From contig DIKL01000070.1 in the NCBI GenBank assembly GCA_002424545.1, positions 1 through 33,671 of the forward strand: a DNA stretch of 33,671 nucleotides, given 5' to 3'. The DNA is from Syntrophaceae bacterium UBA5619 (GTDB lineage Bacteria; Desulfobacterota; Syntrophia; Syntrophales; UBA5619). Both the position numbers and the translations under genes were made by a program. The notes below the pieces were generated by a model. That model had not been told where the DNA came from. It saw only the letters and a list, made by a program, of their open reading frames with translations, and did not search any database. Of this stretch, positions 1 to 23,201 are shown piece after piece (the first letter of the stretch is position 1; every line of letters starts with the position of its first letter).

Positions 1-193
1 GTCGAAGAATACCGTCGGGGCCTCCACTGACGGATCCGCTCCCCTCGAAAAAAAATCACATAATGTTATCTATTCTATGATTATTATTCTTTTGACTTAT
101 ATTGTGAAGCGTATAGATTGGCCACACGATCCATAGAAAAACGATTCCATTGGATCTTGGCAATGACGCTGAGGATTTGACAAGGAGGTGGCC
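1..193. other. Leader region upstream of phnW
   Basis: No gene end is recognisable in the first 60 bases. The AT-rich part from about 50 to 120 stands out against the GC-rich genes and holds the shared 33-bp motif (65-97). The phnW ribosome binding site (AAGGAGG, 182-188) closes the region. A short frame at 150-392 overlaps phnW in another frame and is a shadow. Confidence 0.5.
65..97 (+). promoter_or_regulatory. Shared 33-bp regulatory motif, copy 1 (phnW)
   Basis: Read toward phnW this is GTTATCT, four variable bases, TATGATTATTATT, two variable bases, TTTGACT. It aligns without gaps to copies at 5540-5572 and 15946-15978, which lie in the same orientation to their genes. TTGACT at 92-97 could be a -35 hexamer, but no convincing -10 lies 16-18 bases further; TATAGA occurs at 14. 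The ATC-N8-GAT core is compatible with a LysR-type site, and the AT-rich GATAAT-like repeats also recall Fur-type boxes. The binding protein is unknown. Confidence 0.75.
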
Positions 194-1399: not shown

Positions 1400-2529
<1,130 letters not shown>

Positions 2530-2533
<4 letters not shown>

Positions 2534-4224
2534 ACGGCCGCCGACTTTTTCATGCTGCTGCCCAGTCTGGTTTTCCTGCTGATATAATTCAGGATCATCA
2601 TGCAGAGCATGACGATCACGACCAGTTTCATCGTGGTGGCGGAGGCGATGCCGATTTCCCCGTAGACGGCGGCATCAAAGATCTTCACGGCGGCCAGATC
2701 GAACCCCGGGCTGACCAGAAAGACCACGGCGCTCAGGGAAACGATCGCCGTCATGAAGGTATAGAGGAACCCCGCGATAAAGGCGGGAAACATGATCGGC
2801 AGCACAATCTTGTAGAAGGTGGTCAGAAAGCTGGCGCCCAGGTCCGCGGAGGCCTCCTCGATCTCGATATGGATCTGGTGCAGCTTGCTGATCCCCGCCT
2901 CCACGCCGACGGCGAGGAAACGGAAGACGCAGTTCAAGGCCAGGATCATGATTCCGCCCGTCAGTTTGAGCGGCGGCGCGCTGAAGGCCAGCAGATAACC
3001 GATGCCGAGGACGGTCCCCGGGAGCGCGAATCCGGAGAGGGAAACCATCTCGATAAAAGTGCGCCCGAAAAAATTTCCCCGGACGATGACATAGGCCAAA
3101 AGTACGCCGATGACGGCGCCGATGATCGCCGCCACGAAACTCACGCGGATGCTGTTGTAGATCGCCTGGTTGGATGTGAAATCCAAATAATTCGCCAGCG
3201 TGATATTGTGCGTGACCCCAAGGATCTTGTAAAAGGAGGCAACAAAGACAATACCGAAACAGATAAAGATCGCCCCCGCCGCCACCGTCGTGATGATGAC
3301 GAAGGGAACCTTGACCAACGGGGTGATTTTCCTCGGCTCCGAGGCTACGGGTTTGCCGCCGATCGTTGTAAATTTCTTCCCCTCCAGAAGATAGTTGTGG
3401 ATGAAGAAGATCAGGATGCAGGGTGCGATCAGCACGACGGACAGGACGCTCCCCATGTTGAAATCGGACTCCCCGGTAATCATCGTGTAGGTGTCCGGGG
3501 CCAGGAAGGGGGTCCGGCCGCCAAGGATGGCCGCGTTGCCGAACTCGGCGATCGTCATGACAAAGATCAGAAGCCCCGCCTTGAGCAGCCCCGGTGCCAG
3601 CAGCGGGATCGTGATCGTCCGCAGGATGGTCGCCTCCGATGCCCCCATGTCATAGGCGCTCTCCTCGAGATTGGGATTGAGCGACATCAATGTGCTTTCA
3701 ATCATCATGAAGGCCAGCGGAATGAAGGCGAGGGTCTGGGAGATCACGACGCCGCTGAAACCGTAAAGCTGCCAGTGGAGGTCGAACACCCTGGTGATGA
3801 GGCCGTTGCGACCAAAGAGGATGATCAGCGACAGGGCAAACAGATACGGGGGGGCGATCAACGGGATTAGGGAGATGAGTTTCAGCGGCTTTCTCAGGAT
3901 CCACGGACCCCGTGTCGTCATGTAGGCGAGACAGAAACCGATGATGAGGCAGACCGCCGTATTGATCACCCCAAGCAGCAGCGTGTTGTACAGGGATTGA
4001 AAGTAATATTGCTTGCTGAAAAAGACCTGGTAATATTGAAGGGTGAAACCATCGGGCCCCCGAAGGCTCTTGATCAGGACCATGATGATCGGGTAGAGGA
4101 GAAAGAACGCCAGCAGCAGGAACAAAATGGCTGCAAGGATGTTGATCAGATTTGCATTCAGGAAATCCTTGACCCTGCTTCCGCTGCTGGATTGTAACTT
4201 GACGGATAACTCTGCTGTTGCCAT
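2530..4224 (-). CDS. ABC transporter fused permease, 2-aminoethylphosphonate type
   Basis: This integral inner-membrane protein of about 564 residues carries two binding-protein-dependent permease units in tandem, as in FbpB-like permeases. Each half has around six hydrophobic helices and an EAA-type cytoplasmic loop: EESAYDMGASEATILRTI in the first half, EEASADLGASFLTTFYKI in the second. The frame is open from a TTG at 4251, but ATG at 4224 has GGGAGG six bases upstream and is preferred. It lies between the binding protein and the ATPase in one leftward operon, and its stop overlaps the ATPase start. It would form the translocation pore of the 2-AEP importer, with both half-channels on one chain. 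Confidence 0.87.
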
Positions 4225-4251
4225 CCATACCCTCCCGCGGTCATTCAACAA

Positions 4252-4301: not shown

Positions 4302-5294
4302 TTATTTGAAATCGGTTCTCAGCTTCTGCTTCCAGATGTCGTTGTTCTTCGGTCTGTCGTCCGCCGCCTTGCCCAGATCCAATTTGATGTACTTGGGCAG
4401 GGTCTGACCATAGAGTTTGTTCGGCGCCGGCCGGGGAGCCACATAACCGATCCCCGCCATAAGATCGCTGAACTCTTGAGAACCAAGAACGTCAAGGACC
4501 TTCTTGCAAACGTCGGCCTTTTTTGTGCCCTTGAAAATCAACGCGTAGGTGCCGTCATAACCGGTCCCTTCCTTGGGGATTGACCAGAACAATGGATATC
4601 CGTCGTCGAGACGCTTCTTGACGTTCTCATCGGAAGTAATCCCCAGCATGAATTCGCCGCGGCCGACCAGATCGGTCGGGGCGTTGCCGCTTCGGGTGTA
4701 ATGATGGATGTTCTTGTCAAGCGCCTCGAGGAATTTCCACCCCTCATCATCCCCATAGAGGGCCAGGAAGGAGAAGCGCATCATATTGGCGGTCCCGGAA
4801 CTCAGCGGCGAGGGCATTACGATCTCCCCCTTCCATTTCGGATCCAGCAGATCCTTCCAGCTTTCCGGCATTTTGTATCCCGCCTTGGCGAGGCGGTCCT
4901 TGTTGCCCACGAGGACAAACGAAAAATTACCGATGTTGTACCAATTTCCCGGTGAATCCATGAACACTTCCGGAACCCCTTTCCAGGCAGCGGAAACGTA
5001 GGGGGCGGCCCAACCGTTTTTCTTGGCCATGAACGCCAGCGGCGATCCGCAGCCGATGATCATGTCCGCGTTGAAGTTGGGTGCCTCGGCCTTTGCGCGG
5101 GCCTCGATTTCCCCGAAAGACTGGAAGGTCTGGTTGACGGTGATGCCTGTTTTGTCCTTGATGAATTTGACGATCTTGGCGTTGTTGTCCGGAGATGTGC
5201 CCATATAGGCGTTGATGTCTTCCGCCAAGGCGGTGCCGGCAAGCGTTACGGAAAAGATCCCGGCGACGATGACTGCAATGAACTTTGCTTTCAT
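4302..5294 (-). CDS. Extracellular 2-aminoethylphosphonate-type substrate-binding protein
   Basis: This periplasmic solute-binding protein (about 330 residues) begins with a classical signal peptide: MKAK, a hydrophobic core, then cleavage near TALAE. The mature part resembles the ferric-iron/AfuA/2-AEP binding-protein group (bacterial extracellular binding family 1), including FDDEGWKFLEAL-like and ADVCKKVLDVLGS-like segments in the second lobe. A TTG at 5306 is in frame, but it overlaps the ribosome binding site GGAGGA, which is correctly spaced for ATG at 5294. It is first in the ABC operon. A palindrome (5311-5326) abuts the ribosome binding site and the shared motif (5540-5572) lies about 250 bases upstream. 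2-AEP specificity is inferred from neighbouring phnW and pbfA. Confidence 0.85.
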   Translation of the reverse strand: MKAKFIAVIVAGIFSVTLAGTALAEDINAYMGTSPDNNAKIVKFIKDKTGITVNQTFQSFGEIEARAKAEAPNFNADMIIGCGSPLAFMAKKNGWAAPYVSAAWKGVPEVFMDSPGNWYNIGNFSFVLVGNKDRLAKAGYKMPESWKDLLDPKWKGEIVMPSPLSSGTANMMRFSFLALYGDDEGWKFLEALDKNIHHYTRSGNAPTDLVGRGEFMLGITSDENVKKRLDDGYPLFWSIPKEGTGYDGTYALIFKGTKKADVCKKVLDVLGSQEFSDLMAGIGYVAPRPAPNKLYGQTLPKYIKLDLGKAADDRPKNNDIWKQKLRTDFK

Positions 5295-5310
5295 ATGTTC
5301 CTCCAATTAA

Positions 5311-5586: not shown

Positions 5587-6753
5587 TCACCGGTTCGTAA
5601 CGTCGATATGGATCAAGATCCTCCGCTTCTCCAGCTCCCGGAAGATCTCCTCCGGGTCAAAAGCGAATTCGGGCATGACGATGCCGGTGCGCTTCACCTT
5701 TCCCCGGGCAATGATCTGCGTCGCGATCCCCATCGGGATTCCCACGCATCGGGTGTATGCCCGGAGCCCTTCCCATCCCTCAACCGAACCGTCCGACGCG
5801 GGGTGCGTGTGCGTCAGGAGATACCTGAGCTTTTTGCCGTCCTTCGTTCCCGTCACATCGATATGCAGCGCGTACCCGTAGAGTTTGGTCTCCTGCCCGA
5901 CCGGATACTGCATCAGATAGGCAGACACCGCATCCATGATCCCGATCTCGACGCCGGCGATCTTGATCTTGTCGTTTCGCAGGATCCCCCAGTCGTAGAG
6001 GGCCCGGACCAACTGCATGTTCTGCGGCGGCCAGGTCCCGCGAACCTCGATCAGACGGGCCTGCTTCCCCTGCTCTTCGAGATAGGCCGCCACCGTCTTG
6101 GTCTCCGAGTGGGGAATGATGTACTGGGGATGCGTCCCGTATGGTCCGGGCAGCGCCACATCCAGCGGCCTCGCGAATGGCGGGACCTGGATGAACTGAC
6201 CATTTTCATAAACGACGCGCCCAGGCAACTTCGGATCGTACTCGTAGCTGGTCGTTTCCGTGATCGAGGTCGAAAAGGCGATGGGCCGGAAGGCGCCGTG
6301 GCTGATCCGGACCGTGTCGATCGTGTCGAGGCGGTCGATCGCATACTTCGCCATCATGTCGGTGGTCCCCGGCGTCATCCCGAACCCGGGGACATGGGTC
6401 CTGCCGTGCGCCTTGAAGACCGGGTCCTGCGGATACTCTTCACCGAAGCCGTTCAGGTTGATCCCGTGGCAGCCCGCCTCCGCGATGCAAGCCGTAGAGA
6501 AACCGTTCAGCGTGATCGTCGTTCCGTCCATGACGATGTCGTAGCCCTTCATGGCCGCAACCGCCGACGCCTTGTCCTTCACATTGACCTTCTTGAAATT
6601 GACGCGGGGATCGTTCAGCCAGTTCACCACCTCCCGGCCCGCTTTTTCGTCGTAATCCCCGATCGTGATCTCGTCGAAATCGGAGAACTGCACCAGATCG
6701 AGCGCCGCTTCGCGGCAGATCTTCCCCGCACCGCCCAGGCACAATACCTTCAT
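5587..6753 (-). CDS. Saccharopine dehydrogenase-like NAD(P)-binding oxidoreductase
   Basis: The 388-residue product starts with a Rossmann fold typical of the saccharopine dehydrogenase family (MKVLCLGGAGKICREAALDL), followed by IGDYDEKAG where NAD(P) specificity is set. The C-terminal catalytic-type domain contains SYEYDPKLPGRVVYENG and the H-x-H-P-A-S segment near residue 315. It is not the lysine-biosynthesis enzyme by context. It lies 18 bases after the class III PLP enzyme at 6772-8160, with ribosome binding site GGAAAGG, so the two form an operon. A plausible role is reducing an imine or oxidising an amine in aminophosphonate turnover, but the substrate is unknown. Confidence 0.75.
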   Translation of the reverse strand: MKVLCLGGAGKICREAALDLVQFSDFDEITIGDYDEKAGREVVNWLNDPRVNFKKVNVKDKASAVAAMKGYDIVMDGTTITLNGFSTACIAEAGCHGINLNGFGEEYPQDPVFKAHGRTHVPGFGMTPGTTDMMAKYAIDRLDTIDTVRISHGAFRPIAFSTSITETTSYEYDPKLPGRVVYENGQFIQVPPFARPLDVALPGPYGTHPQYIIPHSETKTVAAYLEEQGKQARLIEVRGTWPPQNMQLVRALYDWGILRNDKIKIAGVEIGIMDAVSAYLMQYPVGQETKLYGYALHIDVTGTKDGKKLRYLLTHTHPASDGSVEGWEGLRAYTRCVGIPMGIATQIIARGKVKRTGIVMPEFAFDPEEIFRELEKRRILIHIDVTNR

Positions 6754-8160: not shown

Positions 8161-8330
8161 GCAAGTCCCTCCTTATGCTCATCCACCCATCCCTTTGGAA
8201 GACGATTCCGTCTCCACCCGGCGATCCCTCCCGGATCGACCATTCGGCCTGAGTTTCCGGGTGGATTATCCCCGGCGAGCTCCGCCGGATCAAGGGAAAA
8301 AAAGTGATCCAACCCATAACAAAAGAGGAT

Positions 8331-8359
8331 TTGACTTCATTGGGATGGGGATGTTACGG
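8331..8359 (+). promoter_or_regulatory. Probable promoter of the pbfA-like gene
   Basis: TTGACT (8331-8336), 17 bases, then TTACGG (8354-8359), placed 41 bases before the ATG at 8400. The TTGACT-N17-TTACG arrangement recurs at copy 3 of the shared motif (15946 region, minus strand). The -10 is weak, which would fit activator dependence. Confidence 0.4.
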
Positions 8360-8399
8360 AAAACAGGTACAAATTCATTTCCGAGGGAGGATCGACCCC

Positions 8400-9764
8400 A
8401 TGGAAAAGCTGCACCGGTCGGAAGGGGATATCAACATTTCGCCACGGCGGAAGAAATGGCAGCAGGAAAATCTCGATCGGCAGACGCGCGAGCTGCTCGC
8501 GGAAGATGAGAAATATTTCCTCAAGCAGTCGCTCTCGACCCCCTGCCTGAACGCAATTCGTGCCTGCGACGGGATCTGGATCGAAGACCTCCAGGGACGC
8601 CGTTACATGGATTTCCACGGAAACAACGTCCATCAGGTCGGCTTCGCCAACCCCGCCATCATTGCCGCCGTCAAGGAACAGCTCGATCAGCTCCCCTTCT
8701 GCACCCGACGCTACACCAACCGGATCGCCGTCGAGCTGGCGAAGAAGCTCGCCGAAATCGCCCCCGGCGATCTCAACCGCGTCCTCTTCTGCCCCGGCGG
8801 CGCCGAGGCGATCGGCATGGCCCTGAAACTCGCCCGGATCGTGACCGGCCGCCACAAGACGATCTCGATGTGGGATTCCTTTCACGGGGCGTCGCTGGAC
8901 GCGATCTCCATCGGCGGGGAGGCGATCTTCCGCCAGGACATGGGACCGCTCCTGCCCGGCACGGAACACGTCCCGCCTCCCGATGAGTACCATTGCATCT
9001 ACAATTGTCGCGGCCGCGGCGGCTGCGACATGATGTGCGCCCGTTACGTGGAGTACGTCCTGGAGAAGGAGGGGGATATTGCCGCGGTAATCGCCGAACC
9101 GATCCGGAGCACGCCCTACATCCCGAAGCCGGAATACTGGCGGATCATCCGCGCGGCCTGCGACCGGCACGGGGCGCTGCTGATCTTCGACGAAATCCCG
9201 CACGCCCTCGGCCGGACGGGCCGGATGTTCACCTGCGAAAATTTCTCCGTTGTCCCCGACATGCTGGTCATCGGCAAGGGACTGGGCGGGGGGATTTTCC
9301 CGCTGGCGGCGCTGATCGCCCGGGAGGGGCTCGACGTGGCCGGAAACCGCGCATTGGGCCACTACACCCACGAGAAAAGTCCGGTGGCATGCGCCGCGGC
9401 GCTGGCGACAATCCGCTTCATCGAAGAAAATCACTTGGCGGAACATGCCCGCAAACTCGGAGAGTACGCCCTCGGACGGATGGCGGAAATGATGGAACAC
9501 CATCCGCTGATCGGCGATGTGCGGGGGCTGGGACTTTTCCTCGGCATCGAACTGGTGAAGGACCGCAAGACCGGCGAACGGGCCACCGACGAGGCTGAGG
9601 CCGTCATGTACGCCGCCCTCAGCCGGGGACTGAGTTTCAAACTGACGATGGGGAACATCCTGACGCTGACGCCCGCGCTGACGATCACGCGGGAAGAGCT
9701 GGACCGGGCGCTGGATATCATTGATGCCTGCCTGGACGAGGCCGAAAAGGGTCTCAGGCGGTAA
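8400..9764 (+). CDS. pbfA: (R)-1-hydroxy-2-aminoethylphosphonate ammonia-lyase-like PLP enzyme
   Basis: PbfA converts (R)-1-hydroxy-2-aminoethylphosphonate to phosphonoacetaldehyde and ammonia, letting hydroxylated 2-AEP enter the PhnW pathway. This 454-residue protein has the family's LHRSEGDINISPRR start, the PLP Asp about 264 (LIFDEIPHALGRTGR) and the Schiff-base lysine about K293 (VIGKGLGGG). The DEIPHALG segment replaces the usual aminotransferase DEV-x-T/S-G. A C-x3-C-x5-C-x3-C cluster lies at about 199-213. A GTG at 8304 would precede the promoter, so ATG at 8400 with GGAGG nine bases upstream is chosen. It is the only plus-strand gene between phnW and the TRAP operon, and its stop overlaps the convergent phnA stop. 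Assignment rests on resemblance and the phnW context. Confidence 0.78.
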   Translation: MEKLHRSEGDINISPRRKKWQQENLDRQTRELLAEDEKYFLKQSLSTPCLNAIRACDGIWIEDLQGRRYMDFHGNNVHQVGFANPAIIAAVKEQLDQLPFCTRRYTNRIAVELAKKLAEIAPGDLNRVLFCPGGAEAIGMALKLARIVTGRHKTISMWDSFHGASLDAISIGGEAIFRQDMGPLLPGTEHVPPPDEYHCIYNCRGRGGCDMMCARYVEYVLEKEGDIAAVIAEPIRSTPYIPKPEYWRIIRAACDRHGALLIFDEIPHALGRTGRMFTCENFSVVPDMLVIGKGLGGGIFPLAALIAREGLDVAGNRALGHYTHEKSPVACAAALATIRFIEENHLAEHARKLGEYALGRMAEMMEHHPLIGDVRGLGLFLGIELVKDRKTGERATDEAEAVMYAALSRGLSFKLTMGNILTLTPALTITREELDRALDIIDACLDEAEKGLRR

Positions 9765-10845
9765 AGATCCAGGAGACCACCTCCGCGTTGGTCCGCGGTT
9801 TGACGGCCAGCGGCCCCGCTCCCATAGCGTAGATGGGAATATCCCGTTCGTGAAGCGAACCGTGGGAACGGACGCTGAGCTCTTCGCGCGGCCCCGACAG
9901 ATCGCCGAAGACCGTTTCCCGGTCGGCGAGCAGAAAAAGGTGGCCGATCCGTCCGGGATGGAGACGGTAGAGGCGGGCGGCGGTTTCGCGGGGCAGCACG
10001 GCCTCGATCCCCTTCTCTTCCCGCAAGACGGCCGCGGCCTCCCGCTCCGTCGCGGGATCGTTCAGGTAGACGTAGGCGGCCCCCCCCAGGTTCCGGTGAT
10101 GGACCACGTGGCGGTCCTTGATGATCGGGATTGCCCGTGCCGCGATCCCCTCGGCGGCCAGGATGGCCTCCGGACTGAGCCCTCGCGATTTATCGTTCAT
10201 TCCGTGGTCGGCGGTGACCACCATTTCGAGATCCGGAATCGCATCGACGATGTCGCCGATCAGGCGGTCGATCCCCCGGATGTGGCGCCGGGCCTCCTCC
10301 GACCCCGGCGCAAAGGCGTGGTGCACGTAATCGGTGGTGGAAACGTACACGAAATCGGGACTCTCCTGCCGGAGAATGTCCAGCGCCGCCTTGAGAAGCC
10401 AGTGGTTCACCTCGATCGTGTAGATCCCCGGCGCCGCGCCGATCCTTTCCACAATCTGCGTCGACGGCCTCTCCGCCGACTCCGCAATGGTCGCGCCGTC
10501 CCGGATCAGACTCTTGAGCTTGTCCTTGGCCGTCAGCAGGCAGCTCTTCATGCCCCGCCCGGCAAGATGGCGAAAAGCGGTCGACGCCAGCAGATACTCC
10601 GCCGATTCCATGTAACACTCTTGACCGCTCGCGGGATCGAGCAGGTAGTTGGTCGTAATCCCGTGGGTCTCGGGGAAGCTCGCCGTGATGATGGAGGTGT
10701 TGTTGACATTGGTCACCGTAGGGACGACGGCTTCGCCGATTCCGTGGAACCCCTCCCGGGCGATCGCATCGAGGTTCGGCGTCTCGCCGTCTGCGAGGTA
10801 GTCCGGGGAACAGCCGTCCAGACAGATGATCACCCTGGTCGTCAT
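9754..10845 (-). CDS. phnA: Phosphonoacetate hydrolase
   Basis: PhnA cleaves the C-P bond of phosphonoacetate to acetate and phosphate with two zinc ions, and belongs to the alkaline phosphatase/NPP superfamily. In the 363-residue product the first metal ligand is D10 (ICLDGCSPDYL). A Thr in VPTVTNVNNTS (T45) lies 35 residues further, the spacing between D29 and the nucleophile T64 of the characterised Sinorhizobium enzyme. Other metal-site segments are STTDYVHHAF, VTADHGMND and RSHGSLHE. Its start overlaps the upstream HAD stop by four bases (ATGA) and its stop overlaps convergent pbfA by 11 bases. It is last in the HAD-HAD-phnA unit. A phosphonoacetate hydrolase implies that phosphonoacetaldehyde is oxidised here rather than split by PhnX. 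Confidence 0.88.
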   Translation of the reverse strand: MTTRVIICLDGCSPDYLADGETPNLDAIAREGFHGIGEAVVPTVTNVNNTSIITASFPETHGITTNYLLDPASGQECYMESAEYLLASTAFRHLAGRGMKSCLLTAKDKLKSLIRDGATIAESAERPSTQIVERIGAAPGIYTIEVNHWLLKAALDILRQESPDFVYVSTTDYVHHAFAPGSEEARRHIRGIDRLIGDIVDAIPDLEMVVTADHGMNDKSRGLSPEAILAAEGIAARAIPIIKDRHVVHHRNLGGAAYVYLNDPATEREAAAVLREEKGIEAVLPRETAARLYRLHPGRIGHLFLLADRETVFGDLSGPREELSVRSHGSLHERDIPIYAMGAGPLAVKPRTNAEVVSWIFTA

Positions 10846-11558
10846 TGATCCCTCCCGGAAACCAATCGTTCCACGTCGAGCAGACCCTCCAGGGAGTCGA
10901 CCACCGGCGCCGCAGTCTCCACCTGCGGCCAGTTGCGCCGCAGGGTCCGGTGTTTGAGCCAGACGGGGTGCATCCCCACGGCCTGCGAACCGCAGACGTC
11001 GATCCGCCAGTCGTCCCCCACATAGACCGCATCGTCGGCTTCGATCCCCAACCGGGCAAGGCAGAGATGAAAAGGTATCGGATCGGGCTTCGCGGGCACG
11101 CCCCCTTCACCGGCCACGACGATCACCTCAAAGAATCTCATCAGTCCCGGATAGTTGCCAAGGCGGTGGTTCCCCTCCTCCGTCTGTCCCTGGGCATTGG
11201 TGATCAGCGCCAGACGATGTCGATCCTTCAGGGCCGTCAGCACCGTTTCCGACTCGGGGAAGATGCGGGTCATCGCCTTGATCCTGTCCCAATACTCGGT
11301 TTCCCAACGTTCCAGCAGGGCAGAATCGGGTCGTCGGCCGTAATGGCGGAAGAGTTCTTCCAGAATTCTCTTCCGGGAAAAATCGGAACGGGCGTGGAAA
11401 CGGGAGCGGATCTCCCGATACACCTCCAGAAACTTCTCTTCCCCGGTCAGTCCCAAGGCCTCGCCGGCCTTACGCTGCGCTTCCTTTTCCGCGGCACGGA
11501 AGCCGTCCGCCGAATCAACCAGCGTCTGGCCGAAATCAAACACAATCGCCCGGATCAT
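10842..11558 (-). CDS. HAD-superfamily hydrolase, nucleophile motif DFGQT
   Basis: This 238-residue haloacid dehalogenase-superfamily protein has nucleophile D8 in DFGQTL, motif II ITNAQG, the motif III lysine in PAKPDP and motif IV in YVGDDWRID. An alpha-helical C1-type cap lies at about residues 15-90. The residue two after the nucleophile is Gly, not the acid/base Asp of ordinary HAD phosphatases. Phosphonatase PhnX (DWAGT) and haloacid dehalogenases also lack that Asp, although DFGGT-type HADs of other function exist. Genes on both sides overlap or nearly touch it (phnA by four bases, the second HAD ten bases away). It may act on a phosphonate or phosphate intermediate, but no substrate can be assigned. 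Confidence 0.75.
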   Translation of the reverse strand: MIRAIVFDFGQTLVDSADGFRAAEKEAQRKAGEALGLTGEEKFLEVYREIRSRFHARSDFSRKRILEELFRHYGRRPDSALLERWETEYWDRIKAMTRIFPESETVLTALKDRHRLALITNAQGQTEEGNHRLGNYPGLMRFFEVIVVAGEGGVPAKPDPIPFHLCLARLGIEADDAVYVGDDWRIDVCGSQAVGMHPVWLKHRTLRRNWPQVETAAPVVDSLEGLLDVERLVSGRDQ

Positions 11559-11568
11559 CCGTTCACTC

Positions 11569-12219
11569 TCACTTTCCGTTTATTCGTTCAATCTCTCCGG
11601 GGATCTCCCGGCAGGACGGCAAAACCCGCCAGGCCCCCGCAAACTCGCCGCCCCGCGTCAGGTCGTTTGGAACGACGATGCAGCGGATGCCGGCTGCGAA
11701 AGCCGCCCGTAAACCTCGTTCCGAATCCTCCACAACGAGGCATTCCTCAGGGCGGAAACCGCTCCGCGTCACGGCCAGACGATAGGGCTCCGGATCAGGC
11801 TTGGAGAGGAGATAATCCTCCCGGGTCAGGATGAAATCAAAATGGGAACGGAGCCCCGTTCCGGCGTGGATCGCATCAAAATGGGAACGCCGGGAACTCG
11901 TAACGATCGCCTGGAGCACCCTTCCGCTGAGTTTCGCCAGCGTCTCCTCAACACCGTCCAGAATGCGGACGCCTTCTTCGACCAGTTCCGTGTAACGCCG
12001 GTTTCTCTCCTCGTGCAGACGGTCGATCTGCCGCTGTGAAACACCTTTTTCCAGGGCCAGATCGAAGGCGCTCCGCCCTTCCTGGAGAGAGATCCGCCGG
12101 AAGAGCGCTTCCGTCAACGTGACCCCGGCCCTTTGGAGCAGTTCCCGCGTCGCCTGAAAATAGAGTTTCTCCGTATCCACGAGGACGCCGTCGTTGTCCC
12201 AGAATATCGCCCGGATCAT
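11569..12219 (-). CDS. HAD-superfamily hydrolase, beta-phosphoglucomutase-like
   Basis: The 216-residue protein has a complete HAD-IA active site: D8 and D10 in WDNDGVLVDTE, motif II VTSSRR, the motif III lysine in LLSKPDPEPY and motif IV VVEDSERGL. A small helical cap occupies about residues 18-80. This is the phosphatase/mutase pattern with the acid/base Asp present, unlike its neighbour. Ribosome binding site GAGG precedes the ATG. It is the first gene after the terminator at 12274-12312 and heads the HAD-HAD-phnA unit. I see no strong promoter between the terminator and the start, so partial readthrough from the dehydrogenase gene is likely. The substrate is unknown. Confidence 0.75.
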   Translation of the reverse strand: MIRAIFWDNDGVLVDTEKLYFQATRELLQRAGVTLTEALFRRISLQEGRSAFDLALEKGVSQRQIDRLHEERNRRYTELVEEGVRILDGVEETLAKLSGRVLQAIVTSSRRSHFDAIHAGTGLRSHFDFILTREDYLLSKPDPEPYRLAVTRSGFRPEECLVVEDSERGLRAAFAAGIRCIVVPNDLTRGGEFAGAWRVLPSCREIPGEIERINGK

Positions 12220-12273
12220 TGGATAACCTCAGCACGGTCTGAAAACGGGTCCCGAAAACCGCGCGCCTCTCAT

Positions 12274-12312
12274 CATAATAAAAGGACGGCCGCGCATTTC
12301 CGTCGGCCGTCC
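12274..12312 (-). terminator. Intrinsic terminator after the aldehyde dehydrogenase gene
   Basis: On the minus strand GGACGGCCG and CGGCCGTCC form a perfect 9-bp stem around an 11-base loop, followed directly by TTTTATTAT. It splits the citrate-synthase-like/dehydrogenase transcript from the HAD-HAD-phnA unit. Confidence 0.85.
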
Positions 12313-12350
12313 CTCCCTACCGTATTTTCCGCTGATCCGCAACAGGCGGA

Positions 12351-13745
12351 TCAGTCTTTGCCGTATTTCTTGAAGTAGGTGCCGAAGAGTTCCTCGTCCG
12401 TGGGCTCGTAATCCGCAACGGGCACCGCCACACGCGTGTACATGATGAACTGTTTCCAGTTGATGTTTTCACAACTGATGTTCCCGGCCCAGGTCCCGCA
12501 GCCCAAGGTGTCCGTAAAGCCCAGGTGGCTCGTCCAGCCTCCGCTGTTGGCCGCCGTATGACCCATGTTGCAGACGACGCGGCCGACGTTCGCCCGGAGG
12601 CCGATCTTGTGCATCCGCTCGTCGAGGCGCGTCTGGATGTTGACCGAGTGGCCCTCGCCGGAGAACTTCAGGATCTTCTCCATCCGGTCCAGCATCTCGT
12701 CGAAATCGGTCCACTTCCAGACGGTCAGCACCGGGGATAGCTTCTCGCCGGAGAATCGGTCCTCCTTGCCGATCTTCTCGCCCATAACCATCAGCATCGT
12801 CGTGTTCTTGGGAACCTTCAGTCCGGCCAATTCGGCGATGAAGGTCGCCGATTTCGCGACGATCTCCCGGTTCAGCGTATGACCGTCCGGCCACATCGTC
12901 TTCCGGAGGATTTCGCGCTCCTCGGTGCTGCACAGGTAGCCCCCTTCGGTCTTGAGGGCCGCGATCATCTTGCCGAAGATCTTCTCCTCGATCGCCACGG
13001 CATTTTCCGAAGAACAGGAGGCCGCGTTGTTGGCTGTTTTGGATTTCCGCAGACGAAAGGCGATCCCGGGAATATCATCCTCGACCGTCGCGTCGACGAT
13101 CGAGATCACGTTCCCGGCACCCACGGTTTGAGCGGGAACCCCAGCGGCATAGACGACCTTCACCAGCGCCGCGCCGCCGGTCGCCACCGCGTAGTCGCAG
13201 TTCGCCATCAGCTCCTGGGTCTTCTCGTTGCTCGTCTTCCGGATGCACTGGACCAGATCCACCGGCGCGCCGACCTTCGCGAGCGCCTTGCGGATGTGGT
13301 CCACCGTTGCGTTCGTCGCCAGCTCCGTGCGGGGATGGGGCGAACAGATGATCGCATTGCGCGTCTTCAACGTCGAAAGCGCGATGCAGCAAACCGTCGA
13401 CTCGGGGTTCGTACAGGGAACCACGTTCGCGATCACGCCGATCGGCTTGGCGTAAGTCCGGATCCCCTTCGCCTTGTCCTCGCTCACCAGACCGCACGTC
13501 TTGATGCCGATCTGATCGTAAAGCGTCCCGCGAACCTTCGTGCCGATCTTGTGCACCTTGTCTTCGTAGACGCCGAGGCCCGACTTCTCCACGGCCAGGC
13601 GCGCCAGTTCATCCGCCGTCTCCGCCTTCTGCAGCTCCCAACCCACGGCCAGCACCATTTCGTCGACCTTCTCCTGCGGCCAGTACTCGACCGTTTTGAA
13701 CGCTGCCCGCGCCTTTTCGTACATTTCCTGAATATTGTCTTCCAT
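12351..13745 (-). CDS. CoA-acylating aldehyde dehydrogenase, sulfoacetaldehyde dehydrogenase (SauS)-like
   Basis: The 464-residue product is an aldehyde dehydrogenase of the CoA-acylating branch. The catalytic cysteine is about C244 in KTANNAASCSSEN. The Glu-Leu-Gly-Gly general-base motif of non-acylating enzymes is replaced by VGAGNVISIVD, and the N-terminal YAKPIGVIANVVPCTNPES block is typical of the acylating group. SauS makes sulfoacetyl-CoA from sulfoacetaldehyde. Here phnW, pbfA and phnA point to phosphonoacetaldehyde, so the product would be phosphonoacetyl-CoA, an inference. An in-frame GTG at 13760 contains the ribosome binding site, so ATG at 13745 is used. It follows the two citrate-synthase-like genes and is closed by a terminator. 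A sulfonate substrate is the main alternative. Confidence 0.82.
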   Translation of the reverse strand: MEDNIQEMYEKARAAFKTVEYWPQEKVDEMVLAVGWELQKAETADELARLAVEKSGLGVYEDKVHKIGTKVRGTLYDQIGIKTCGLVSEDKAKGIRTYAKPIGVIANVVPCTNPESTVCCIALSTLKTRNAIICSPHPRTELATNATVDHIRKALAKVGAPVDLVQCIRKTSNEKTQELMANCDYAVATGGAALVKVVYAAGVPAQTVGAGNVISIVDATVEDDIPGIAFRLRKSKTANNAASCSSENAVAIEEKIFGKMIAALKTEGGYLCSTEEREILRKTMWPDGHTLNREIVAKSATFIAELAGLKVPKNTTMLMVMGEKIGKEDRFSGEKLSPVLTVWKWTDFDEMLDRMEKILKFSGEGHSVNIQTRLDERMHKIGLRANVGRVVCNMGHTAANSGGWTSHLGFTDTLGCGTWAGNISCENINWKQFIMYTRVAVPVADYEPTDEELFGTYFKKYGKD

Positions 13746-13800
13746 GACGAACCCCCTCACATTTAAAAAGAAAAAACTTCAGTTGCAATGAGCTGATCCG

Positions 13801-13861
13801 TACCCTGCCCATGCCGGAAGATCTGGATGGGCAGGGTATCCCGAAATCATCAGATCTTCCG
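13801..13861 (-). other. Two mutually exclusive perfect hairpins between citrate-synthase-like gene and dehydrogenase gene
   Basis: TACCCTGCCCAT (13801-13812) pairs exactly with ATGGGCAGGGTA (13827-13838). The loop sequence CGGAAGATCTG (13815-13825) is exactly complementary to CAGATCTTCCG (13851-13861), which covers the stop of the upstream gene. The connectors are too short (one and two bases) for both long stems to form as one pseudoknot, so they should compete. There is no T-run, so it is not a plain terminator. Confidence 0.6.
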
Positions 13862-14845
13862 TTTGGGATCGTCGATTTCTTCCACGATCGCCCATCCGGA
13901 ACCCTTGATCTTCTGCCGCTCGAGGAAGATCTTCTTCCACTCCTCGGGCGTCTGCGCCTCCATCGCCTTGGCAACCTTCTTTCTCTCTTCCAGCGTCGGA
14001 ACCTGCCGGTCCGCCGGTCCGTCGTACCACTCCTTCGGTGTCAGCGTCTGACCGAGGCCAACGGGCGCCTCCCGTTCGATCTCCTCGCAGTAGTGGGCGC
14101 CCGTGGCGAAGGCCCGGGTCACCGCCAGAATCCCCCAAGCGGCCTCCGGGGTGAAGCCGAGGTCGAACATCACCGCCCCCGTGGCGCCCAGAAGATCGAT
14201 GTCCACCGGCGACTGGCTCAGCTTCTGCGCCGCCTTCACGATCTCCTTCATCAGGGAAACATACTTGCCCGCCACCCCCAGCTTCTCGGCACGGGCGATC
14301 ATCCGCTTCGCCATCGGATCCTTCAGCATCAGGCCGGAAACACCCAACGCGGGGTCGTTCAGTTTCGTTCCGACCACCGCTTCGACCAGTTCCGCCAGCG
14401 GTTTCCCTTCCTTTTTCTGACGGGCCAGAATGCCGTCCATCATCTTCCCGATTTCCTGGTAAGCGCCGTAGGCATGGCCGAAGGCGAGGATGGACGAACC
14501 GGCGGCCTGGGTCAGGATGGTCTTGCCGCTCGCCACGATCCGGGCGATGTTCGCCGGGGAGGAGAGGCCATCCTCCAACATGCAGACCATGACGTAGTTG
14601 AGCATCCGGTCTTCCTCAACGAGGGGAATCCTCGCCTGAAAGTCGACGAAAAGAACATCGGTCAGACCATACCCCTGCTCCACCAACTCCGTGGTATCGT
14701 AGCCGCGGGACACAATGCGGTGGACGTTCTTGTAGGCCACCTCGGACACCCACTGGAAGCGGGCACGCTTGTCGTCGAAAGGAACCGTTCCCCGCTCACG
14801 GGTCCGGTAATTGAAATTAAGTCTCGGATCGTCTAGATTATCCAT
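13850..14845 (-). CDS. Citryl-CoA lyase/citrate-synthase-like protein, subunit B
   Basis: This 331-residue protein has the citrate-synthase superfamily fold pattern: GYDTTELVEQGYGLTDVLFVDF near 48-70, SSILAFGHAYGAYQ (118-129), a DP pair at 176-177 and LGATGAVMFDLGFTPEAAW (219-237). It ends with a charged tail beyond a WYDGPADR-x-VPTLEER segment that subunit A also has. Only the first classical histidine (H124) appears kept. The second His position aligns to V169 and the Asp position to L219, by manual alignment to family motifs. It overlaps the upstream paralogue by 13 bases, suggesting co-translation and a heteromeric complex. It may act on phosphonoacetyl-CoA or another acyl-CoA made by the downstream dehydrogenase. 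It is shorter than citrate synthase, close to citryl-CoA lyase. Confidence 0.72.
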   Translation of the reverse strand: MDNLDDPRLNFNYRTRERGTVPFDDKRARFQWVSEVAYKNVHRIVSRGYDTTELVEQGYGLTDVLFVDFQARIPLVEEDRMLNYVMVCMLEDGLSSPANIARIVASGKTILTQAAGSSILAFGHAYGAYQEIGKMMDGILARQKKEGKPLAELVEAVVGTKLNDPALGVSGLMLKDPMAKRMIARAEKLGVAGKYVSLMKEIVKAAQKLSQSPVDIDLLGATGAVMFDLGFTPEAAWGILAVTRAFATGAHYCEEIEREAPVGLGQTLTPKEWYDGPADRQVPTLEERKKVAKAMEAQTPEEWKKIFLERQKIKGSGWAIVEEIDDPKRKI

Positions 14846-15726
14846 TTTTTATATTCTCCTTCCTCTTTCTGCTTGCGGGCGTATTCCTGTCTCTCGGCCT
14901 GGCTCGGAACTTCACGATCGGCGGGCCCGGTGTATTTGATCATGGAAAGATCCAGCATCTGGACCATGGGTTCGCGCCGCGAGGCTGCCCAGGCGCGCCC
15001 CTTCTTCATGGTGAAGGTGGCATGGGCCGCGCAACTGAAACCGCGGCAGACACAGCCGATGCACCAGGCCGCGTTGGGGGAAAACCCCAGCTCCGCCAGC
15101 GCCGTGTTGCCGGCGCCGATCATGTTCACCGATACGTAGTCCTTCCCTTCCTTCTTCCGGCGGGCATTGAAGTGCTTCTCGATGGAGCGCTGAAGGGCGA
15201 GATAAACGCCGCTGCAGAGCTGCTCGTGCTTGATGTGCGTTGGTTCCGCCCGCGGGTCCCCGTCCAGATGCTGCGGCTGACCCATCCCCATGACGGCCAG
15301 TCCCGCATCCATGTACTCGTCCACAAGGATCTTGCCCATCTCCTCGATGGTCTTTCCCTCCACGCGGGCACGCTCGATGTACTTGTGCATCATGTAACCG
15401 TGCGCGGCCCCCGGACCGTGGGCCGACCCGAAGGTCATCACCGCCGCCGAGATCGCCGCGGGAAGGTTCGGCCGGCCGCCCATTACCGCGATCGCCGACG
15501 CCGCCGACGGTGACATGGAGTGCTCCAGAAACTCCCCCGTCTCATACCGCAGCATATCCGCCTCATTTTCCGCCGGAATTCGGTTCTGGAAGAGGATGAA
15601 GAGCATGTCGTAGAACGTGTAGCCCGCCTCGGCCAGATCGCTCACGTTATAGCCCCTCACGACGGTCTTCTCTTCCGTCTTGTAGGAAATGGCTGTCTTC
15701 CTTTTTAACAACGGTTGTCTATCCAT
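14833..15726 (-). CDS. Citryl-CoA lyase/citrate-synthase-like protein, subunit A
   Basis: The 297-residue product opens the leftward operon, with ribosome binding site GGGAGGA seven bases before the ATG. Superfamily landmarks are GYNVSDLAEAGYTFYDMLFILF (25-46), MTFGSAHGPGAAHGYM (97-112), VMGMGQPQHLDGDPR (145-159) and GAGNTALAELGFSPNAAW (204-221). In citrate synthases these hold His, His and Asp. Here H103 is kept, the second position is Q150 (with H153 nearby) and the Asp position aligns to I203. It shares the GPADREVPS end segment with subunit B, so the two are paralogues from a duplication. Four cysteines near 222-232 are unusual for the fold. It likely binds a CoA thioester, but the reaction is unproven. 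Confidence 0.72.
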   Translation of the reverse strand: MDRQPLLKRKTAISYKTEEKTVVRGYNVSDLAEAGYTFYDMLFILFQNRIPAENEADMLRYETGEFLEHSMSPSAASAIAVMGGRPNLPAAISAAVMTFGSAHGPGAAHGYMMHKYIERARVEGKTIEEMGKILVDEYMDAGLAVMGMGQPQHLDGDPRAEPTHIKHEQLCSGVYLALQRSIEKHFNARRKKEGKDYVSVNMIGAGNTALAELGFSPNAAWCIGCVCRGFSCAAHATFTMKKGRAWAASRREPMVQMLDLSMIKYTGPADREVPSQAERQEYARKQKEEGEYKKWII

Positions 15727-16485: not shown

Positions 16486-17601
16486 ATGAAGAAAGCAGTC
16501 GGATTTTTGGTTATCGCAGCATTTTTGGTTGTGTTCGGTCTGGCGGACCTGTCGTCGGCGGCGCTGGCGCCTTCAGGACCGATCAAGTGGAAGCTCCAGA
16601 GCGCAAACCCCGCCGGGGCACCGCAAATTGAGTTGTTGAACAAATTGGCCTCCAACATCGACAAGATGTCGGCCGGAAGGCTAAAGATTGAGGTCCTCGC
16701 GAGCGGCGCGATCGTGAACCCCTTTGAAATCCTCGATGGCGTCAACAAGGGCATCATCGAGTGCGGCCAGTGGTGGACCCACTATTCAATGGGCAAAAAC
16801 CCCAGCGGCAGTCTCTTCAGCTCCCCGCTCGGCGGCGCCGGCAGCGGTCTGGACCTGATGAACCACCTTTCCTGGTACATGAACGGGGGCGGACGGGAGC
16901 TCTACGTGGAATATTACACGAAGATCCTCAAGGCCGACGTCATGCCCTTCCTGATCGCGCCGGACGGCCCCGAGGCTTTCGGGTGGTCCAAGAAGCAGCC
17001 CAAGACGCTCAATGATTACCTGAAAATGAGGTACCGCATGTCCTCCGGCCTGTCGTCGGATGTTTTGAAGGACATGGGCGGCATCCCGGTGAACGTGGCC
17101 GGCCAGGAGCTCATCCCGGCGTTGGAGAGGGGCGTCATCGACGGCGGCGAGTGGATCAACACGGCCAGCGACCTTAAGATCGGGCTCTACGACGTAGCCA
17201 AATTCTACTCCCTCCAGGGGCTCCACCAGGCCATCGGCATCATGGACATCATGATCAACGGCCAGGCCTGGCGCGCACTCTCCCCGGATCTCCAGGCGAT
17301 CGTCGCAACCGCATGCACGCAGTCGATCCTCGACGGCATGATGTACTTCGTGGAGGAAAACGCCAAAGCCCTCAATATCCTGGTCAAGGAAAAGGGCGTC
17401 AAGGTCTTCGACGCCCCCAAGGGCTACTCGGAGGCCTTCATCAAATCTTCAAAGAAGGTGCTCGCCAAATTCGAGGAGAAGGATCCCTTCTTCAAGAAGG
17501 TGCTCGATTCACAGCGCAGTTATGCCAAGCTGGTGGTCCCCTTCACCAAAGAGACCAACAAGCTGATGCAGTTGATCTCCGGGGCGGCGGAGGTGAAATA
17601 A
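16486..17601 (+). CDS. dctP: TRAP transporter periplasmic substrate-binding protein
   Basis: DctP-family proteins bind organic acids in the periplasm and deliver them to the DctQM membrane pair, driven by a sodium gradient. The 371-residue product starts with a signal peptide (MKKA, hydrophobic stretch, cleavage near SSAALA). The mature part shows WKLQSANPAG, MSAGRLKIEVLASGAI and the family's IPALERGVIDGGEWI segment near 210. Ribosome binding site GAGGAGG lies five to six bases upstream. It heads a rightward operon with DctQ, DctM and an alcohol dehydrogenase, divergent from the citrate-synthase-like operon. The ligand cannot be read from sequence. Placement suggests a phosphonate or a carboxylated relative such as phosphonoacetate, or a sulfonate. 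Confidence 0.88.
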   Translation: MKKAVGFLVIAAFLVVFGLADLSSAALAPSGPIKWKLQSANPAGAPQIELLNKLASNIDKMSAGRLKIEVLASGAIVNPFEILDGVNKGIIECGQWWTHYSMGKNPSGSLFSSPLGGAGSGLDLMNHLSWYMNGGGRELYVEYYTKILKADVMPFLIAPDGPEAFGWSKKQPKTLNDYLKMRYRMSSGLSSDVLKDMGGIPVNVAGQELIPALERGVIDGGEWINTASDLKIGLYDVAKFYSLQGLHQAIGIMDIMINGQAWRALSPDLQAIVATACTQSILDGMMYFVEENAKALNILVKEKGVKVFDAPKGYSEAFIKSSKKVLAKFEEKDPFFKKVLDSQRSYAKLVVPFTKETNKLMQLISGAAEVK

Positions 17602-18479: not shown

Positions 18480-19796
18480 ATGACTTTGGAAACGTACGGC
18501 CTGATTCTCCTGGTAGGCCTCTTCTTCTTTATATGCGTGGGGTTCCCCATATCCTTCACGCTGATCACCCTCGGCGCGATCTTCGGTTATATCGGATTGG
18601 GGCCCAAGGTGTTTCACCTGATGACCTTCTCCTTTTTCGGAACCATGATGGACACCGTCCTCGCCGCGGTGGCCCTTTTCACGTTCATGGGCTGCATCCT
18701 GGAGAGCGCCGGACTCATGGAACGGCTGTTCCATGCGGTGCAGCTCATCTCCGGCCGACTCAGGGGCTCCCTCTACCTGGGAACCATCTTCTCGGCGACA
18801 CTGTTCGCCGCGGCCACGGGCATCGTCGGCGCATCGGTCACCATCATCGGTTTGATGGCCGCCCCGGTCATGAAAAAGGCGGGGTACGATCAGGGGCTGT
18901 CCGCCGGAACGATCTGCGCCGGCGGGACGCTGGGAATTCTGATCCCCCCGAGTGTCATGCTCGTGGTCATGGGACCGGTGTTCCAGGTTTCCGTCGCGCG
19001 GCTTTACGCAGCCGCCATCATCCCGGGCATGATGCTCGCCGGATTGTATATTTTTTACACGATGGTACGGGTGATGATCAAACCCGAGCTGGGTCCGCCC
19101 CTCTCCGATGAGGACCTCGATGTTACCAAGAGCTTCATCATCCGTGAATTCTTCGTTGGTCTGGTGCCGCCGGCTGTTCTGATCCTCGTCACCCTGGGCA
19201 CCATTCTCACCGGCTTGGCCACGCCCACGGAAGGGGCGGCCCTCGGCTGCCTGGGCGCGGTGGTGGTCACGGCGGCCAACAAACGCCTCACCTTCAAACT
19301 CATCAAGGAATCGGCCTATCGAACCGCCGAAACCACAAGCATGGTGATGATCCTCCTGGCGGCCTCCACCTTCATGGGGGCGGTCTTCTCCTCCATGGGA
19401 ACGCCCAAATTCATTGCCGATACGTTGCTGTCCTGGAACATGCCGCCCTGGGTCTTTATCGTCGGGATCCTGATCGTCTGCTTCATCCTGGGGTGGCCCC
19501 TGGAATGGGTCCCGATTGTGGTGGTTATTGTCCCGATCTTCCTTCCGGTTCTCAACGGGCTTAAAGTGGATATGATCTGGTTTGCCATCGTTCTGGCCGT
19601 TACTTTGCAGACCTGCTGGCTCTCACCGCCGGTCGCCCTCTCGGCCTACTACCTCAAGGCGATCATGCCGGAATGGGAGCTGAAGGACATCTATCTGGGG
19701 ATGATGCCTTTCATGGCATTGCAGGGATTGGGCGTGTTCTTCATCTACAATTTCCCGCAGATTACCCTGTGGCTGCCCAAGTTTCTATTCGGATAG
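18480..19796 (+). CDS. dctM: TRAP transporter large permease
   Basis: DctM forms the transport channel of the TRAP system in the inner membrane. The 438-residue protein is almost entirely hydrophobic, with about 12 helices. It contains family landmarks such as FTFMGCILE, ATGIVGASVTIIGLMAAPVMKK-like and AGTICAGGTLGILIPPSVM segments, and LTGLATPTEGAALG in the second half. ATG at 18480 has GGGAGGA upstream. It ends 15 bases before the alcohol dehydrogenase ATG, so transporter and enzyme are co-transcribed. Confidence 0.92.
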   Translation: MTLETYGLILLVGLFFFICVGFPISFTLITLGAIFGYIGLGPKVFHLMTFSFFGTMMDTVLAAVALFTFMGCILESAGLMERLFHAVQLISGRLRGSLYLGTIFSATLFAAATGIVGASVTIIGLMAAPVMKKAGYDQGLSAGTICAGGTLGILIPPSVMLVVMGPVFQVSVARLYAAAIIPGMMLAGLYIFYTMVRVMIKPELGPPLSDEDLDVTKSFIIREFFVGLVPPAVLILVTLGTILTGLATPTEGAALGCLGAVVVTAANKRLTFKLIKESAYRTAETTSMVMILLAASTFMGAVFSSMGTPKFIADTLLSWNMPPWVFIVGILIVCFILGWPLEWVPIVVVIVPIFLPVLNGLKVDMIWFAIVLAVTLQTCWLSPPVALSAYYLKAIMPEWELKDIYLGMMPFMALQGLGVFFIYNFPQITLWLPKFLFG

Positions 19797-21159: not shown

Positions 21160-21308
21160 GGGTTGATTTCTCAGGACAGACCTCCTGAACAGCCGTGCGG
21201 GATTGCCCCCTGAAGTTCCTTCATCTCATTCTAAGATGTTCCCGGGAAGCCAAAGGTCGGACGGATTCAAGAATTTATTTTCATTTAGAATTCTGGAGTA
21301 CAGACCGC

Positions 21309-22181
21309 ATGAATGTGAACCATCTAAAGGCCTTTTTCGAGGTGGCCAAGGCAAAGAGTTTCACGCGTGCCGCGAAACAGTTGAACGTTTCTCAGCCGAC
21401 CCTCAGCATGCAGGTAAAGTTGCTGGAGAAGCGATTCGCCGTCCCGCTGATCAAACGAAACAAGAAAACATTCGAGTTGACCAAAGAGGGGAGCATCGTT
21501 TTCGGTCATGCGGAAAAGATCTTTTTTCTCATCCACGAGCTGAAAAAGGAACTGGAAAATTTCGAAACTTCCAACATGATCATCGGTTCCACGCCGTACA
21601 TCTCTAATCATGTTCTGCCGGATGTTCTGCTCGCCATGCACGAGAAACACAGCGACGTGAAGGTCCAGATCTACACCGGTTTGTCCCAGGAGGGCCTCGA
21701 CAAAGTCGTGGATTACGAATACCACTTGGCCGTCATCGGAAGGTTGCCCTACCCGGACAATATCGTCTTCATCCCCATCCTGAAGTCGAAATTGTGCTTC
21801 ATTTCGAAAGAGGATATGGGCCAGCGGGTCAGCCTTCACCAATTGGCGGACTACCCGATCATTCTGCCCGAAGAGGGATCGGCGACGCGAGATTACATCA
21901 TCCGCCAGTTCGCCGCACGGAATCTGACCATCACCAACAGCATCACCTGCGAAAATCCGCCGGCGATCGGTCACATGGTGCAATTGGGGATGGGCGGGGC
22001 GTTCTTTCACCTGTTCACCATCCAGCGGGATGTCCAGGAGGGGCTGTATCACATGGCCGAAATCGAGGAGGAGCTTTACGTGGATTACGATCTGGTCTTT
22101 TTGAAAGACCGCAGAAGCTCCGACATGGTGCGGATGTTCACATCCACCCTGAAGAAGCTGCAGCGGACCCTTTCGAAATAG
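21309..22181 (+). CDS. LysR-family transcriptional regulator
   Basis: The 290-residue protein begins with a LysR winged helix-turn-helix (residues 1-60; MNVNHLKAFFEVAKAKSFTRAA, then LNVSQPTLSMQVKLLE). A periplasmic-binding-protein-like effector domain follows from about residue 90 (IIGSTPYISNHVLPDVLLAM). The frame is open from 21195, but the conserved LysR start and GGAG upstream place translation at ATG 21309. It has its own promoter. LysR proteins usually activate a neighbouring operon on binding a pathway metabolite. It is the only DNA-binding regulator in the phosphonate island, so it is the best candidate to recognise the 33-bp motif, an inference. Confidence 0.9.
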   Translation: MNVNHLKAFFEVAKAKSFTRAAKQLNVSQPTLSMQVKLLEKRFAVPLIKRNKKTFELTKEGSIVFGHAEKIFFLIHELKKELENFETSNMIIGSTPYISNHVLPDVLLAMHEKHSDVKVQIYTGLSQEGLDKVVDYEYHLAVIGRLPYPDNIVFIPILKSKLCFISKEDMGQRVSLHQLADYPIILPEEGSATRDYIIRQFAARNLTITNSITCENPPAIGHMVQLGMGGAFFHLFTIQRDVQEGLYHMAEIEEELYVDYDLVFLKDRRSSDMVRMFTSTLKKLQRTLSK

Positions 22182-23113: not shown

Positions 23114-23201
23114 TTCAACACCTCGAACTCCCCGTTCCCAGGACAAATTCCGATCCCTTCGGGCTTCCGGACCAAGCCCCCTCTCCCGGTTCCATGGTCC
23201 G

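Follow-up and report, generated by a model that had tools for sequence, protein, structure and literature searches.

A gene cluster that probably lets bacteria degrade natural phosphonates by first linking a key intermediate to coenzyme A

The 33,671-nt stretch of DNA analysed here (the window; contig DIKL01000070.1 of the UBA5619 metagenome-assembled genome (MAG) GCA_002424545.1, 88.5% complete with 7.6% contamination) is a dense 2-aminoethylphosphonate (AEP) cluster, which probably lets bacteria degrade natural phosphonates by first linking a key intermediate to coenzyme A (CoA). Two degenerate citrate-synthase-like genes (CSA and CSB), a SauS-like aldehyde dehydrogenase and a HAD hydrolase (HAD1) recur as a unit among at least 60 related loci, with phnA as an optional member. 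A CoA-dependent hydrolytic pathway, in which AEP and other entry compounds would be converted to phosphonoacetaldehyde, then to phosphonoacetyl-CoA, and finally to acetyl-CoA and phosphate by HAD1, CSA and CSB, is given about an even chance. In the run from CSA to phnA (15726 to 9754) all genes were on the minus strand and overlapped at both ends of the run, by 13 bp between CSA and CSB and by 4 bp between the phnA-like gene and HAD1. Two HAD genes lay inside the run, HAD1 being the one that belongs to the conserved unit. The genes of the run were:

14833..15726, minus strand: CSA, citrate-synthase-like subunit, degenerate but with H69, H103, R159 and R228 kept; nearest families citryl-CoA lyase/citrate synthase
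13850..14845, minus strand: CSB, degenerate citrate-synthase-like subunit; nearest families citryl-CoA lyase/citrate synthase
12351..13760, minus strand: SauS-like CoA-acylating aldehyde dehydrogenase, which would form phosphonoacetyl-CoA; NF047625 483 bits, below cut-off 600; Cys249 in 38/38
11569..12219, minus strand: HAD2, beta-phosphoglucomutase-like HAD with a normal DxD motif; present in the window and 3/60 loci
10842..11558, minus strand: HAD1, candidate C-P hydrolase and core partner of CSA/CSB, a HAD hydrolase with a C1 cap (motifs, predicted model, co-occurrence)
9754..10845, minus strand: phnA-like gene, putative phosphonoacetate hydrolase and optional member of the unit; TIGR02335 223 bits, below the cut-off of 408; PDB 1ei6 3e-53

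For the aldehyde dehydrogenase, SauS was the best family match, below its cut-off, the next two families were CoA-acylating acetaldehyde dehydrogenases, and acylating SSADH and AdhE chains were the top PDB matches. The catalytic Cys249 was invariant in the 38 sequences compared. The enzyme would therefore be of the CoA-acylating, SauS-like type, as a preliminary description of this DNA had stated, and would produce phosphonoacetyl-CoA from phosphonoacetaldehyde. SauS, the acylating sulfoacetaldehyde dehydrogenase, is its closest named family and uses an analogous substrate with sulfonate in place of phosphonate, but the window enzyme stayed below the family cut-off and lies in a phosphonate context.

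The unit was widespread. The contig scan with the CSA alignment gave at least 60 loci with 58-96% identity (best segment), carried by deltaproteobacterial, planctomycete, chloroflexote, spirochaete, verrucomicrobial, Bacteroidota, gemmatimonadote and alphaproteobacterial MAGs, and by one MAG binned as nanoarchaeal (L020; L numbers denote loci). Among loci with enough downstream DNA, CSA was followed by CSB in 49/50, by SauS in 35/39 and by HAD1 on the same strand in 22/30, so the adjacency of CSA, CSB, SauS and HAD1 is more than chance. HAD1 of L038 was on the other strand, and the genome of L018 has HAD1 beside phnA, on a contig equal in length to that of the locus. Phosphonate markers (phnW, pbfA, hpnZ, phn_DUF6, AEP-type transporter and phnA) were counted in the 42 loci whose flanks add up to 8 kb or more; at least one was present in 28 and none in 14. 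After three near-copies of a rumen spirochaete locus had been removed, the distance matrices of CSA, CSB, SauS and HAD1 correlated with r of 0.56 to 0.87, while phnW correlated with the unit at 0.42 to 0.65, which overlaps the range within the unit, and hpnZ at 0.14 to 0.39. Thus the four genes of the unit tend to travel together, with hpnZ, and less clearly phnW, being exchanged.

Genome searches covered 50 of the 60 loci, in 49 genomes (the CSA genomes), and HAD1 was found in 40 of them (1e-20). A sample of 297 genomes from the window's phylum contained CSA (1e-60) in two and HAD1 (1e-40) in the same two, one being the window's MAG; neither gene was found in the other 295 at these thresholds. 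HAD1 is therefore the closest companion of CSA and CSB, and it was missed by the earlier gene list, whose members (phnW, a PbfA-like lyase, a phnA-like gene, the SauS-like dehydrogenase and two citrate-synthase-like genes) were all confirmed, pbfA being present twice. PhnW-AepZ passed its cut-off in 34/49 CSA genomes versus 11/297 in the phylum sample (own genome included), a contrast which is only indicative because one set spans many phyla and the other a single one.

The second genome of the phylum sample with CSA and HAD1, G328 (95% complete), appears to reach the thioester in another way. An 8.5 kb contig carried hpnZ, a ferredoxin-like protein, an aldehyde:ferredoxin oxidoreductase (AOR), HAD1, CSA, CSB and CoA-transferase A/B, and the genome lacked a match both for the SauS-like enzyme (1e-10) and for PhnW-AepZ (1e-100). 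AOR would oxidise phosphonoacetaldehyde into phosphonoacetate, which the CoA-transferase would charge, giving the same thioester that SauS would produce in one step. L016 also has CoA-transferase genes beside CSA-CSB-SauS, a pair sharing 59-60% identity with the one in G328. The replacement of SauS by non-homologous AOR and CoA-transferase points to phosphonoacetyl-CoA as the common product, and it is the strongest single argument for this intermediate, drawn from one MAG contig and family-level names.

HAD1 was predicted to be a capped HAD (pLDDT 94.4). Asp8, Gln11, Thr12, Asn121, Lys157, Asp182, Asp183 and Asp187 were invariant in 32/32 sequences, as were Arg48 and Arg51, and residue 120 was Thr/Ser in 31 and Cys in one. 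At the general-acid position of phosphatases, 27 sequences have Gly, two each have Asp and Val, and one has Tyr. No invariant cap Lys was found in the 32 rows, the best candidate being K25 (25/32), and HAD1 did not match the PhnX model. In phosphonatase the cap Lys forms a Schiff base with the aldehyde; a thioester substrate would require neither the Lys nor the Schiff base. Apart from this Lys, HAD1 has the catalytic residues of phosphonatase, given in the excerpt of PMC12632274 as a nucleophile Asp and Thr in motif 1, Ser/Thr in motif 2, Lys/Arg in motif 3, two Asp/Glu in motif 4 and the cap Lys. HAD1 thus shares the HAD fold and the phosphonoacetaldehyde hub with the PhnW-PhnX route, but differs in falling outside the PhnX model, in lacking the invariant cap Lys and in its proposed action after oxidation to the thioester.

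The CSA alignment had 57 rows, one of which (L059) was a stray CSB and was left out (n=56). His69, His103 and Arg159 aligned with active-site residues of citrate synthase, and Arg228 was matched by ungapped reading of the aligned stretch; these are presumably the equivalents of His238, His274, Arg329 and Arg401 of the pig enzyme. The ketone-binding His position was Gln150 and the catalytic Asp position was Ile/Val203, the missing residues presumably being His320 and Asp375. All four residues were kept, and Gln150 and Ile/Val203 were present, in 56/56 CSA sequences. In CSB (n=48) the five positions were Asp; Tyr/Phe (His in 1); Val/Ile/Ala; Met/Ala/Ser/Thr; and Leu/Met/Ile. Arg244 was present in all 48. 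Every CSA and every CSB sequence therefore has other residues in place of the catalytic Asp and ketone-binding His. The roles assigned to CSA (enolate-stabilising His, anion-binding Arg, proton-abstracting Asp and ketone-binding His) are assumed from citrate synthase. Since the proton-abstracting Asp and the ketone-binding His are lost, condensation is unlikely, and enolate stabilisation by CSA is possible. Neither a metal site nor a nucleophile site came to light in the two subunits. CSA thus resembles citryl-CoA lyase/citrate synthase in fold family and in its His/His/Arg/Arg equivalents, but it has neither the ketone His nor the Asp and is paired with a more degenerate second subunit.

The known hydrolytic exits were rare. 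Neither PhnX nor PhnY was found above cut-off in the window's MAG (TIGR01422, best 28 bits versus 220; TIGR03250, best 170 bits versus 636, an aldehyde dehydrogenase outside the window), which at 88.5% completeness is not proof of absence. PhnX passed its cut-off in 0/49 CSA genomes, with weaker matches at 1e-20 in 9/49; the single weak match scanned (L038) belonged to the PhnX-like family TIGR03351, with 170 bits, below that family's cut-off of 218.9. PhnX-like HAD genes lay next to hpnZ in L038 (4844-5590, the same TIGR03351 match) and L041 (2-622, same cluster). PhnY passed its cut-off in 1/49 CSA genomes. In L047 a complete PhnY of 755 bits (976-2412) neighbours the module, which puts both kinds of aldehyde dehydrogenase in one genome.

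The phnA-like protein had phosphonoacetate hydrolases as its best PDB matches, with alignments over almost its full length, and it keeps the motifs TTDYVxH, TADHGM and RSHG of the solved enzymes. phnA is next to HAD1 in the window and in L013, L035, L097 and L098. PhnA was over cut-off in only 7/49 CSA genomes, and a match of at least 88 bits was read from the list in 13/49. It is therefore not supported as the defining exit that the preliminary description had made of it; in the window the phnA-like enzyme may be an accessory that takes free phosphonoacetate. The PhnW-PhnY-PhnA pathway has the same phosphonoacetaldehyde entry, oxidises the aldehyde before C-P cleavage and has a PhnA-like counterpart in the window; it differs in that no PhnY above cut-off is present there, the oxidation would be CoA-acylating, and HAD1-CSA-CSB rather than PhnA recurs. 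Of the CoA-thioester variant proposed earlier, the thioester branch is supported: it recurs across many phyla, for the most part where PhnX and PhnY do not pass their cut-offs. The carbon condensation by the citrate-synthase-like pair is not supported.

From the observed gene content, synteny, co-occurrence and residue conservation we infer every reaction and the reaction order. Judging from their families, PhnW acting on AEP, PbfA on hydroxy-AEP and probably HpnZ on 2-hydroxyethylphosphonate would converge on phosphonoacetaldehyde, from which the SauS-like enzyme would produce phosphonoacetyl-CoA with NAD(P)+ and CoA. On chemical grounds the C-P bond would be broken at the thioester level by HAD1, CSA and CSB, giving phosphate and acetyl-CoA: Asp8 of HAD1 would attack phosphorus while CSA/CSB hold the CoA ester, His103 of CSA would stabilise the enolate, and Arg159 and Arg228 would bind the phosphonate. 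As a leaving group the acetyl-CoA enolate is far superior to acetate, so cleavage would need neither the Schiff base of PhnX nor the zinc site of PhnA, and the energy of oxidation would be conserved as acetyl-CoA. The genomic context supports the thioester, while the enzyme that breaks the C-P bond is inferred. A three-part, energy-conserving HAD1-CSA-CSB enzyme that splits phosphonoacetyl-CoA, with a non-condensing citrate-synthase-like subunit stabilising the enolate and with spread by gene transfer, is put forward tentatively, at somewhat less than an even chance; its hosts would be uncultured lineages, most of them probably anaerobic.

Several observations weigh against this proposal. Nine of the 49 CSA genomes had no HAD1 match, including the SauS-bearing L024, L026 and L055, and incomplete bins may explain some of them. 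PhnW-AepZ was not over cut-off in 15/49; an hpnZ-like gene took its place in the locus in L028, L033, L035, L042, L057, L061 and L063, and L031, L044 and L066 had no entry gene within the marker limits. L043, a chromosome-level record, had a shortened SauS reading frame and no HAD1. In L020, CSA and CSB stood beside AepZ and a gene like phosphoenolpyruvate (PEP) mutase/phosphonopyruvate hydrolase, without SauS and HAD1, and CSA was fused to a nucleotidyltransferase domain, a fusion found in four among the 120 CSA homologues listed, L020 included. L020 (1969-11898) also carries a threonine-phosphate-decarboxylase-like gene, a possible sign of unusual phosphonate biosynthesis.

Other explanations were weighed against HAD1-CSA-CSB cleavage of the thioester. 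CSA/CSB could hydrolyse or transfer phosphonoacetyl-CoA, as a thioesterase or for CoA recycling, to give free phosphonoacetate for cleavage by PhnA, with HAD1 as an accessory. This would suit a phnA-like gene that sits in the operon, touches HAD1 here and adjoins it in the four other loci, and aligns over almost its full length, motifs included, with solved phosphonoacetate hydrolases; yet PhnA is much rarer than HAD1 among the CSA genomes even at 88 bits, and AOR and CoA-transferase of G328 would build a thioester merely to undo it, and we hold it to be unlikely. A near alternative, to which the same low probability is given, is that CSA/CSB alone act as the C-P hydrolase, or as a phosphonyl transferase, with another task left for HAD1, for example clearing a phosphorylated by-product. 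It draws on the kept enolate-stabilising His and anion-binding Arg together with the lost deprotonation and ketone-activation residues, and on the genomes that have CSA/CSB and SauS without HAD1, but it is opposed by the lack of an identified metal or nucleophile site in either subunit and by the close co-occurrence with HAD1, in the CSA genomes as in the phylum sample.

The remaining explanations are much less probable. Joining of phosphonoacetyl-CoA to a keto acid by CSA/CSB before C-P cleavage, one form of which would be a biological counterpart of phosphonate olefination, agrees with the fold family and the CoA context and is quite improbable with the general-base Asp and ketone-binding His replaced throughout. 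Marginally lower still is the probability that CSA/CSB belong to phosphonate biosynthesis or tailoring: L020 with its fused CSA and PEP-mutase-like neighbour, and the three other fusions, speak for this, but PEP mutase was over cut-off in 1/49 CSA genomes only (that of L020 fell slightly below, 315 versus 320 bits), and the usual recognised neighbours were uptake and degradation genes. Least probable of all is that the unit handles sulfoacetaldehyde or another aldehyde with phosphonate genes merely nearby; SauS is the nearest named family and a TRAP transporter lies alongside, but the dehydrogenase is below the SauS cut-off, phosphonate markers accompany CSA in two thirds of the loci counted, and no sulfonate family reached its cut-off among the matches listed for the 30 window ORFs scanned.

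Besides the genes named earlier and the two HADs, the window carries an AEP-type ABC transporter, a TRAP transporter and an HpnZ-type alcohol dehydrogenase. The features outside the run were:

188..1306, plus strand: phnW, 2-aminoethylphosphonate:pyruvate transaminase; TIGR02326 591 bits, above cut-off 401
1400..2533, minus strand: ABC ATPase, AEP transporter PhnT2-like; TIGR03265 363 bits, below cut-off 458; PotA model 377, also below its cut-off
2530..4251, minus strand: ABC permease, PhnU2-like; TIGR03262 291 bits, below cut-off 593
4302..5306, minus strand: ABC substrate-binding protein, PhnS2-like; TIGR03261 156 bits, below cut-off 393
5587..6753, minus strand: saccharopine-dehydrogenase-fold oxidoreductase (PF16653, PF03435), adjoining pbfA; relatives in L016, L023, L039 and L098
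6772..8160, minus strand: pbfA-like lyase 1; NF049939 655 bits, above cut-off 525
8304..9764, plus strand: pbfA-like lyase 2; NF049939 722 bits, above cut-off 525
16486..17601, plus strand: TRAP DctP-type binding protein; PF03480
17848..18402, plus strand: putative TRAP small permease (DctQ position), ORF between dctP and dctM; kept in 6 loci including the window
18480..19796, plus strand: TRAP large permease DctM; PF06808
19812..20906, plus strand: HpnZ-type zinc alcohol dehydrogenase, phosphonate-catabolism-associated; TIGR03366 317 bits, slightly below cut-off 328
21195..22181, plus strand: LysR regulator; NF040786 162 and TIGR03339 133 bits, both below cut-off
22241..23320, minus strand: phn_DUF6 membrane protein; TIGR03340 164 bits, below cut-off 288

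Pairs of pbfA paralogues were observed in the window, L023 and L058, and may serve different stereoisomers or substrates. The saccharopine-dehydrogenase-fold gene might fill the place of the HAEP racemase PbfF without being homologous to it; PbfF, according to the excerpt of PMC12366243, is of another Pfam family. An alanine dehydrogenase gene directly followed phnW in L018 (16932-18041, above cut-off) and L023 (7470-8585, same cluster), which fits pyruvate regeneration. Paired genes for MtmB-like corrinoid methyltransferases stood near phnW-pbfA-CSA in L038 (7154-9955) and L043 (525-4858), and are a possible anaerobic entry for N-methylated AEP; 7154-8524 of L038 was assigned by Pfam and the others by clustering, and L043 also has an MttB-like gene below cut-off. 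A PiT/CysP-type anion permease family, which could export surplus phosphate, was present in L022, L023, L025 and L048, the L025 member matching a sulfate permease model below cut-off.

For the hydrolytic breakdown of AEP the literature describes PhnWX and PhnWYA, and in the excerpts of the AEP-cluster papers only these two and an oxidative route are named for AEP (PMC8154272, PMC10590968). Phosphonoacetyl-CoA appears as a predicted product in the excerpt of a biosynthesis study, the assay of which lacked the expected by-product (PMC12871164). No description of a CoA-thioester phosphonate route was found in the titles and abstract openings of the papers listed, a coverage that leaves out most subscription journals and bioRxiv at large. 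Since phosphonoacetyl-CoA appears in these papers only in another setting and the AEP papers name other routes, the route is rated as a novel variation on hydrolytic phosphonate catabolism, which may include an enzyme new to C-P cleavage. If this is true, HAD1-CSA-CSB would add a fourth chemistry for hydrolytic C-P cleavage to those of PhnX, PhnA and PalA, and would be a testable case of the citrate-synthase fold turned to C-P chemistry. Its gene families are added to those available for phosphonate surveys of sediments. The route would explain phosphonate use by genomes that have phnW without PhnX, PhnY and PhnA, and it would give anaerobes acetyl-CoA besides phosphate and nitrogen.

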